Source: Deltaproteobacteria bacterium (GTDB lineage: Bacteria > Myxococcota_A > UBA9042 > DTJE01). From it: DNA of 32,752 nt. The DNA lies in NCBI GenBank assembly GCA_016875475.1, contig VGRB01000006.1, positions 1 through 32,752 on the forward strand, read 5' to 3'. How positions within the stretch are numbered: the first letter of the stretch is position 1; each line of letters starts with the position of its first letter. The translations under genes and the position numbers were made by a program. The notes under the pieces were generated by a model. It did no database searches. It was not told the DNA's origin and saw only the letters and a list, made by a program, of their open reading frames with translations. This document shows, piece by piece, positions 10,713 through 32,752 of this stretch.

Positions 10713-10748
10713 GCAATTCCCGGCAGCGCCGCCGGCGGCTCGGGTGCA

Positions 10749-10833
10749 GGTCTCCCCGCGCGCCTCGGTCCGCGGCGTTGGGGCCGCCGCGGACCGCCCG
10801 GAGCGAACGGGACGGCGCGCGGCGGGGAGGCCC
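10749..10833 (-). repeat. Structured intergenic element, copy B (three-way junction)
   Basis: Minus-strand stems: outer imperfect stem (7-bp core 10758-10764/10814-10820), CCCG-TTCGCTC-CGGG (10797-10811), GGTCCGCGGC-N9-GCCGCGGACC (10767-10795). Alignable with 32149-32237. Confidence 0.6.
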
Positions 10834-10969
10834 GCTGAGGCATCCCCTCATGATCGGCAGCCGAACGGAGTCGGGGAGCTGCGTGCGCGGTGGGCGATCC
10901 AGCGGGCCTCACATCTGGCCCGCGGCCCGGCGCGCCCGGCTTGCGGGGATACCTCAGGGAGGCCCGCGG

Positions 10970-29393: not shown

Positions 29394-30758
29394 ATGACGA
29401 CGGACACGGCAGGCGGAAGGGCCCCCGGGGCCGGCAGCGTGGCGGTGACCGCGGCGCTCTCGGCGTTCCTGCTCGGCCTCTCGATCGCGGGGTTCTGGGC
29501 GGTGCGGGTCGCGGAGCGCGATCGGCTGACCGCGGCGGCGCTCCAGGCGACGTTCTCCCTGCACGACCAGGTGCGCATCGCGCGTCCGGCGGGCCCCCTG
29601 GCGCTCCAGGACGTGATCGAGCGTTTCGAGGCCGACTCGGTCGTGTCGGTCGCGATCATCGGGCCGGGCGGCCGGGTCGTGGCGGGGTCGGACCCGGCGG
29701 AGCGCGGGCTGCCCGTCGTGGACGCGAGGCTCCAGGCGGCGCTCGCGACCGGCGAGGTCCAGGCCGGGGGCTCCGGGGGCTCGTTCGAGGCGTTCGTCCC
29801 GGTGCGGCACCTGCGCGGCCTCGGGCACCGCTGGCGGAAGCTCCTGCCGCCGCTCCACGGGCTCGCGCACGACGGGCCGCCCGGGGACGGGCCGCCGCCG
29901 CCCGACCCCTGGGGCCCGGGGTTCGGGGACGTGGTCGTCCGGATCGGCCTGGACGCGGGCGGGTCGTGGCTGTGGACCTGGGTGTGGGCCCAGGGGCTGG
30001 CGTCGGCCGCGGTCGTGGCGGCGCTCTGGATCTGGCTCGCGCGGTCGCGGCGGACCGCCGCGCTGCTCGCGGCAGCCGAGTCGGGCCGCCGTCGCCGGGA
30101 GGTGCTCGCGCGCCTGGGCGAGGTCTCGGCCGTGCTCGCGCACGAGATCCGCAACCCGATCGCCGCGGCCAAGGGGCAGGTGCAGCTCGCGGCCGAGGCG
30201 GCCGCGGCCGGGTCCGCCGGGCCCGCGATCGCTGGAAGGCTCGACGTCGCCGTCGCCGAGGTCGGCCGCGTGGAGGCGCTGGTCCGGGGCCTCCTCGACT
30301 ACGCCCGGGATCGGCCGCTCGCGCGTGCCCGCACCACCGCGGGCGCGCTGGTCGACGCAGGCGTCGGCCACGCCGGCGTGCCCCGGGCGAGGGTCGAGGT
30401 CGCCGGCGACCTCGAGATCGCGATCCACGCGGACGGCGCGCAGCTCGGCCGCGCGCTCGGGAACGTGCTCGCGAACGCGGTCGAGGCGGCGGGCGGCGCC
30501 GGGCGGGTGCGCGTGGAGGTCTCGGAGGCCGCGGGCGCCGTCCGGATCGCGGTCGAGGACTCGGGCCCCGGCGTGCCGGACGATCTCGCCGACCGCGTCT
30601 TCGACCCGTTCGTCACCGGCAGGGTGCACGGGGTGGGCCTGGGCCTCGCGGTCGCGCGCGACGTCGTGGAGGCGCACGGCGGCACGCTGTCCGCGGACCG
30701 CTCGGAGGCGCTCGGGGGCGCCCGGTTCGATCTCGTGCTGCCGCGGGGGGGATCATGA
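29394..30758 (+). CDS. Sensor histidine kinase (ZraS/NtrB-like)
   Basis: N-terminal TM, periplasmic region, second TM ([15 protein letters not shown]), [14 protein letters not shown]-box, [50 protein letters not shown]. Confidence 0.93.
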
Positions 30759-32095
30759 CCGTGGACGGCGCGCGCATCCTGGTGATCGAGGACGAGCCCG
30801 CGGTCCGGAACTTCGTCGCGGACTCGCTCCGCGGCGCCGGGCACGCGGTTGACGAGGCCCCGGACGGCGACGCGGGCATCGCGCTCGCGCGCCGGAACGA
30901 CTACGCGCTGGTCCTGACCGACCTCCGCATGCCGGGGCTGTCCGGGATCGACCTCGTGCGCGCGCTCCGGGCGATCCCGGACGCGCCGGAGGTGGTCGTC
31001 CTGACCGCGTACGGGAGCGTCGCGACCGCGGTCGAGGCCATGAAGGCGGGGGCGCTCGACTTCATCGAGAAGCCCGCGTCCGGGCCGGACCAGGTGCGGC
31101 TGGTCGCGGAGCGCGCGGTCGAGCGGCGCCGGCTCCAGGCCGAGAACGAGCGGCTGAAGGGCGCGACCGCGCGGACGCCCGCGGTGCGGCCCGTGGTCGC
31201 GGACCCCGCGATGGCCGCGGTGATGGACCGGGTCCGACGGGTCGCGCCGACCGACACGACCGTGCTGCTGCTCGGCGAGAGCGGGGTCGGCAAGGAGGTC
31301 GTCGCGCGGGAGGTCCACCGGCTGCGCCACGGCGACCGCGGCCCGTTCGTCGCCGTGAACTGCGCCGCGCTGCCCGAGGCCCTGCTCGAGAGCGAGCTGT
31401 TCGGCCACGAGAAGGGCGCGTTCACCGGCGCGGCCGAGCGCAAGGTCGGGCTCGTCGAGGCCGCGTCCGGCGGCACGCTGTTCCTGGACGAGGTCGCGGA
31501 GATGCCGGTCGCGCTCCAGCCGAAGCTGCTGCGCGTGCTGGAGACCCGCGAATTCACCCGGGTCGGCGGCGTCCGCACCCTGACCACCACCGCGCGGTTC
31601 GTGGCCGCGACCAACCGCGACATCGCCGCGGCGGTCGAGGCGGGGAGGTTCCGGTCCGACCTCTTCTACCGCCTGAGCGTGTTCCCCGTGACCGTGCCGC
31701 CGCTCCGGGAGCGGCCTGCCGACGTGACCGCGCTCGCCGGGCGGTTCCTGGAGACCGCCAGGGTCCGCCTGTCGCGGCCGGACCTCGTGCTGTCCGAGGC
31801 CGCGCTCGCCGCGTGCCGGGCGTACGAGTGGCCGGGCAACGCGCGCGAGTTGCGGAACGCGGTCGAGCGGGCCTGCATCCTGGCCGACGGCCCCGAGGTC
31901 CGTCCCGCGGACCTCGGTCTCGCCGAGCCCGCGTCTCCTGCCGGGGGTGACGCCGGCGCGCTCGCCGCGGTCGAGCGGGAGACCATCCTCCGCGTGGTCC
32001 GCGAGTGCGGCGGCAACCGCCGTGCTGCCGCCTCCCGGCTGGGCATCTCGCTTCGCACCCTGCAATATCGGCTCAAGGAATACGGTGAGGTCTGA
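30755..32095 (+). CDS. NtrC-family sigma54-dependent response regulator (ZraR-like)
   Basis: Receiver [13 protein letters not shown]+ [24 protein letters not shown]; Fis-type [30 protein letters not shown] overlap with the HK. Confidence 0.96.
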
Positions 32096-32096
32096 C

Positions 32097-32148
32097 GTTC
32101 GGCGGTGCAGAACCTGCACTCGAAGGTGCAGGTTCTGCACCGCCGAAC
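32097..32148. promoter_or_regulatory. 23-bp perfect inverted repeat containing two EBP-like dyads (candidate UAS)
   Basis: GTTCGGCGGTGCAGAACCTGCAC-TCGAAG-GTGCAGGTTCTGCACCGCCGAAC; nested GTGCAG-N3-CTGCAC at 32105-32119 and 32126-32140. Confidence 0.75.
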
Positions 32149-32237
32149 GGGCCGCCCCCTGCGCGCCCGTCCCGTTCAAGCCGGGGCGGGCCGCGGCAGA
32201 GCCATGCCGCGGCCCGAGGGCGCGCAGGGGGCGGCCC
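32149..32237 (+). repeat. Structured intergenic element, copy A (three-way junction)
   Basis: 20-bp perfect outer stem (32149-32168/32218-32237), stem-loop TCCCG-TTCAAGC-CGGGG (32170-32186), 11-bp stem-loop GGGCCGCGGCA-GAGCCA-TGCCGCGGCCC (32188-32215). Confidence 0.7.
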
Positions 32238-32317: not shown

Positions 32318-32752
32318 ATGAGACGGAACCTGTTCGCGATCCTGGCCGCGGTCGCGCTCGCACTTCCCGCGATCGCCGCGGCGCAGCCCGGCCCCGGCGG
32401 CCGGGGGGGCGGGTACGGGTACGGGCACGGGAAGGGGGGGATGGGTCCGGGCATGCACGGGGGGCCGGGCGTGCACCTGCGCCACGTGTACAAGTGCCTG
32501 ATGAACTCGCCCGAGATCGCGCTCGACGCGGACCAGAAGAAGCAGGTCGACGCGATCCGCGACGAGCTGAAGGCCGGCCTGAAGGGCCGGAAGAACGAGA
32601 TGCGGGCCCGGCACCAGGAGTTCATGAAGGCCTTCTCGGACGCCTCGAAGTCGAACGCGGACCTCAAGAAGATGGCCGACGCGATGCACGCGGACATGAA
32701 GGCGCAGATGGACGCGAAGTGGGACACGGTGATGAAGGTCCGGCAGGTCCCC
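32318..32752 (+). CDS. Spy/CpxP/ZraP-like periplasmic protein (3'-truncated by window edge)
   Basis: MRRNLFAILAAVALALPAIAAAQPGPGG signal peptide; Gly/His-rich GYGYGHGKGGMGPGMHGG; helical ALDADQKKQVDAIRDELKAGLKGRKNEMRARHQEFMKAF; SD GGAGG. Confidence 0.72.
   Translation, partial: MRRNLFAILAAVALALPAIAAAQPGPGGRGGGYGYGHGKGGMGPGMHGGPGVHLRHVYKCLMNSPEIALDADQKKQVDAIRDELKAGLKGRKNEMRARHQEFMKAFSDASKSNADLKKMADAMHADMKAQMDAKWDTVMKVRQVP

Follow-up and report, generated by a model that had tools for sequence, protein, structure and literature searches.

What kind of element is the three-way junction at positions 32149-32237 of the analyzed window (the whole stretch of 32,752 nt), and how did it come to lie there? 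On the plus strand this sequence, designated copy A, folds in the order P1-P2-P3-P1′, as the first-pass annotation had proposed, with an energy of −90 kcal/mol compared with −55.6 ± 3.6 kcal/mol for shuffled sequences (z −9.5). In the MFE structure its 5′ arm (32149-32168) and 3′ arm (32218-32237) form a P1 helix of 20 bp, within which lie the P2 hairpin GTCCCG-TTCAAGC-CGGGGC (32169-32187) and the P3 hairpin GGGCCGCGGCA-GAGCCA-TGCCGCGGCCC (32188-32215). A relative, copy B, had been placed at 10749-10833; the relationship was upheld, while its ends are better set at approximately 10747-10830 on the minus strand. Folding of the reverse strand of 10745-10834 gave the same helix order with a weaker P1 (z −3.9). 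Both copies carry a 7-nt P2 loop starting with TTC, and the compensatory G-C to T-A change reported between their P3 stems is present in the DNA.

The likeness of copies A and B exceeds that expected by chance. The host genome is a MAG of 5.67 Mb (89% complete), and a BLAST search of copy A against it revealed at least 39 further full or nearly full copies (E ≤ 2.1e-11). A covariance model (R1) built from 29 sequences scored copy A at 76.6 bits and copy B at 59.7 bits and gave 102 matches at E ≤ 0.01. The family therefore numbers approximately 100 copies, most of them outside predicted genes, of an element of roughly 88 bp (85-90 bp) with three helices. Two additional matches stand back to back with known copies, so inverted pairs exist. 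Mean pairwise identity of the copies is 73%, with a median of 86% to the nearest neighbour; identical recent copies are absent, the closest pair sharing 94.5%.

The conservation of the structure was analyzed in an alignment of 100 copies, which was fitted to the model and thus favours pairing, the structure itself having first been seen in an independent alignment; here 96.1% of stem cells are paired, and 26 of the 29 base pairs show double (compensatory) changes. Double-changed cells numbered 308, compared with 72 in shuffles, the covariation score was 0.323 (0.073 in shuffles), and the signal was lost when the pairing partners were slid. Between the closest copies 13 double changes were observed, where 1 would be expected under independence, and the variants of P1 and P3 are mostly unlinked; these two observations indicate that the covariation does not merely reflect two or three inherited subfamilies. 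An absence of further copies and of covariation, by which the first-pass annotation would have recognized a chance similarity of GC-rich hairpins, is clearly not what the genome presents, and its description of a dispersed family with conserved structure but no recognized affiliation also holds, as no sequence in the window matched Rfam at the gathering threshold.

Several unpaired positions are conserved as well, namely GU between P1 and P2, RTTCR opening the P2 loop, a G opening the P3 loop and a lone A before P1′. Column conservation among the 100 copies reaches 99% for G19, 96% for U28, 93% for C30 and 96% for A77. CGTC, located internally at the P1/P2 junction, occurs in 79 copies and TTCR in 68; in copy A the conserved CGTCCC/RTTCR core is carried by the P2 hairpin. 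While this inner core is conserved, the outer part of P1 differs among copies in both sequence and length. The sequence GTTCGATTC hinted at a T-loop or at an element derived from tRNA, but this reading was rejected, since TTCRANY is present in only 10 of the 100 copies.

Searches with the covariance model found no copy in 35 relatives, 12 of them from the same family, or in 51 other genomes of the class, and none of the genomes searched belongs to another species of the genus. The same was true of the 188 other genomes of a 189-genome phylum sample, in a coarser search that scored the best 23 candidates per genome. The GTDB species collection was also scanned with the core pattern, which is strict, so that diverged versions elsewhere could escape it; six sites were returned, none resembling a real copy. 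With the model, the pattern sites in other genomes (L062-L067) score no higher than 25 bits, which is near chance; the top-scoring location outside these sites in four of the pattern-hit genomes (L131; 30.6 bits, E 0.012) was likewise dismissed. By the searches made, the element is lineage-specific.

Placement relative to genes was determined with calls made by a home-made finder based on codon usage. Of the copies that separate co-directional genes, 36 are in the sense orientation and 8 in the antisense (p = 2.5e-5); convergent gaps hold 23 copies, divergent gaps 7, and 24 were unassigned. Sense copies start at a median of 4 nt past the stop codon, and only about 2% of genes are estimated to have a copy; those followed by one include tsf, a nuoF-like gene, a Mur ligase gene and maf. 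Copy B, one of the few divergent copies, is found in the yajC-clpP gap (neighbours assigned by Pfam). Copy A is situated downstream of a gene encoding an NtrC-type sigma-54 response regulator (30755-32095, plus strand; Pfam Response_reg, Sigma54_activat and HTH_8), which ends with TGA, and upstream of a plus-strand gene without a Pfam match that is cut by the window end (32318-32752). Between the stop of the NtrC-type gene and copy A there is a near-perfect palindrome of 54 nt (GTTCGGCGGTGCAGAACCTGCAC..., 32096-32149), which is single-copy in the genome and possibly a terminator or operator. Of 98 copies, 10 are flanked by arrays of a G-rich hexamer, (GGGNNC)n, and 9 by CCTGGGG motifs, the corresponding frequencies at random places being 1.3% and 2.3%; examples of such flanks are found at L017, L014, L092 and window positions 32405-32428. 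One copy (L019 2292-2376; G000:C14:13071-13144) lies with its end 12 nt away from an opposite-strand tRNA gene.

Of 69 stop codons that adjoin the elements, 47 are TAG; at other gene ends without overlap the count is 36 of 89 (p = 6e-4). Overlapping stop/start junctions do not account for this excess, which persisted when they were controlled for (p changing from 3e-6 to 6e-4). TAG exceeds TGA on both sides of the elements. The TAG excess may stem from a preference during insertion, or leaky TGA may be selected against ahead of a stable structure. GTAG was considered as an element terminus or insertion target and rejected: G precedes TAG in 33 of 49 cases at the elements and in 26 of 35 in other genes, and GTAG is enriched upstream only where a stop codon adjoins, being absent from the enriched words where none does.

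The S10-spc-alpha ribosomal-protein operon (contig C66) is interrupted by three copies, located at the rpmC-rpsQ, rpmJ-rpsM and rpsK-rpsD junctions (genes named from their translations). The last two junctions are element-free in the 11 same-family relatives compared, of which ten have short gaps there, of roughly 10-25 nt with a Shine-Dalgarno sequence, and one has longer gaps, still with no copy. This makes it most likely that the copies at these two junctions were gained in the present lineage. These copies left intact the ribosome site belonging to the gene that follows, and the rpsK stop, TGA in the relatives, is TAG in this genome.

Selection on a transcribed RNA is expected to tolerate G-U and to reject A-C in stems. 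Among 2773 stem cells of the element, G-U occurs in 30 and A-C in 25; in the co-directional sense copies alone the numbers are 12 and 9. This near equality suggests that it is at the DNA level that the stems are kept paired, and not through selection acting on the sense RNA, and it weakens the earlier suggestion of a structured RNA. In tRNAs of the same genome the G-U share is 5.3%, compared with 1.1% in the element, a comparison that is usable for G-U, whereas the A-C count of the tRNAs is no fair control because ARAGORN reports only pairable stems. Within the stems G-C to C-G flips number 198 and changes to A-T 76. Most simply, complementarity would be preserved at the DNA level, either in a folded strand or cruciform that is recognized, or by template switching between the arms, which can imitate compensatory change (PMC8794818). 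The conserved loops would favour recognition as the cause.

The sequences were also screened for marks of mobility. Flanking direct repeats of k = 3-9 showed no convincing excess over permuted partners that would point to a target-site duplication; neither fixed termini nor a terminal inverted repeat was found, the outer P1 varying between copies, and none of the 100 copies has GTAG in its first 8 nt. A linked REP-associated tyrosine transposase (RAYT), which the first-pass annotation had proposed to look for, was not found in the 89%-complete MAG. The only Y1 transposases detected there are ordinary IS200 TnpA proteins, encoded by two near-identical IS200/IS605 genes (155 aa; L068 2949-3413 and L069 513-977), and both Y1_Tnp matches are IS200 equivalogs far below the RAYT cut-off. 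The element does not constitute the ends of these insertion sequences: one copy lies approximately 1.2 kb from one tnpA, not at its ends, and none was found near the other. A gene between two copies on contig C14 was rejected as a transposase (no Pfam match, no HUH motif by eye). A contrast to the element is provided by a separate MITE (10835-10957, plus strand), which is not part of it and is inserted at the 5′ foot of copy B. This MITE of ~123 bp has about 36 copies, mostly around 90% identical, and possesses inverted repeats (CTGAGGnATCCCC...GGGGATnCCTCAG) and a 9-bp target duplication, GGAGGCCCG, at 10826-10834 and 10958-10966.

On balance, and with modest confidence, we favour the interpretation that the element is a lineage-specific, REP-like dispersed extragenic repeat with a three-way-junction body, probably non-autonomous and mobile. 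The way of spreading is inferred: copies would have moved non-autonomously, a trans-acting enzyme recognizing the unit when it is folded as a single strand or cruciform that presents the conserved CGTCCC junction and RTTCR loop, and they would survive directly behind stops, where coding sequence, Shine-Dalgarno sites and promoters are spared. If transcribed, so stable a junction would probably act as REPs do at mRNA 3′ ends and operon junctions, as an exonuclease barrier and with weak polarity; such an RNA action would be a side effect and not the origin of the element. Simple insertion of DNA would not be expected to give the sense bias, which counts against a mobile element, as do the lack of a detected mobilizing enzyme, of target duplications, of a terminal tag and of identical copies, and the variable outer stem. 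We put forward, as a tentative idea, that this is a new type of mobile unit: a single strand folded into a three-way junction, which an enzyme unrelated to RAYTs would recognize by the inner junction (CGTCCC, RTTCR loop) and not by the ends, and would put beside stops without target duplication.

The main rival explanation, which we regard as doubtful, is a host-functional RNA of 3′ UTRs and intercistronic regions: the junction behind the stop would control mRNA 3′-end stability, operon polarity or ribosome release, and would be kept by selection on the RNA. The short distance from the stop, the sense bias, the TAG excess and the very stable fold agree with such a role, and so do the copies in the ribosomal-protein operon and behind the other genes named above. 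However, G-U is no commoner than A-C in the stems, in which its share remains far below that in the tRNAs, very few genes have a copy, and the relatives manage without it at the two compared junctions. We consider it unlikely that the copies are protein-binding cruciforms or nucleoid sites for gyrase or a nucleoid protein, relieving supercoiling between genes as proposed for BIMEs. Their absence from all same-family genomes searched and the orientation bias would be unexpected for such sites, although mismatches symmetrical at the DNA level, the many copies in convergent gaps, and the conserved junction and loop bases are consistent with them; we know of no binding protein.

Nor do passive inverted repeats provide a probable explanation, i.e. 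old duplicates whose arms have been kept complementary by replication template switching without structural selection. This mechanism exists and mimics compensatory change (PMC8794818), and the equality of G-U and A-C that it predicts is the one observed, but it leaves the conserved unpaired bases, the gain of ~100 copies and their placement unexplained, and the predominance of G-C to C-G flips is odd for copied spontaneous mutations. It is very improbable that the elements are intrinsic, possibly bidirectional, transcription terminators. Stable hairpins behind genes and in convergent gaps would suit this predicted role, but those copies that precede rpsQ, rpsM and rpsD within the ribosomal-protein operon cannot be strong terminators, and no T-tract follows the stem in the copies inspected. 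Among the three origins suggested by the first-pass annotation (a REP/MITE-like family, a protein-binding cruciform and a structured RNA), the REP/MITE-like one is the best fit to the genomic distribution.

A REP-like repeat of this kind would represent a new architecture among dispersed repeats, combining a three-way junction and a conserved inner core with variable ends. The strong compensatory variation without an RNA signature is a caution against calling structured RNAs by covariation alone. With copies present in the ribosomal-protein operon and element-free junctions in the relatives, it also becomes possible to test how inserts of this kind affect operon expression.

Some known elements share part of these features. 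Bacterial MITEs such as ERIC, NEMIS/Correia and RUP are likewise dispersed, intergenic, foldable and non-coding sequences of 70-300 bp, but the element differs from DDE-type MITEs in having neither a fixed terminal inverted repeat nor a target-site duplication. Integron attC sites are recognized as a folded single strand; they also lie behind the stop in the gene orientation and conserve structure over sequence. However, RYYYAAC and GTTRRRY ends were not seen by eye in the element ends inspected, and attC sites form a cassette array, whereas the element copies are scattered across core operons. The ends of IS200/IS605 elements are folded single-stranded DNA recognized by HUH transposases, and two IS200 TnpA genes are present in this genome, but the element is not found at the tnpA ends.

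The closest likeness is to REP, BIME and REPIN sequences, which are also extragenic, reach high copy numbers in one lineage, form imperfect palindromes with compensatory stem changes, and occupy co-directional and convergent gaps near 3′ ends, with some inverted pairs. REPs have been described in the same unidirectional and convergent gaps, no more than 20 bp from 3′ ends, and the TAG stop is often provided by GTAG REPs (PMC3733652), whereas GTAG is no part of the element described here. A REP is a single hairpin of 20-40 bp, one end of which bears GTAG or CGTC as an unpaired tag; the element, in contrast, is a three-way junction of ~88 nt without a terminal tag, in which CGTC is internal. REPINs conserve their ends (PMC3116915), while the element conserves its inner core and varies in its outer stem, and it is further distinguished by the lack of a RAYT and of any G-U preference. 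The family is real and lineage-specific, and it is best treated as REP/MITE-like, resembling REPs in distribution and evolution but not in build.
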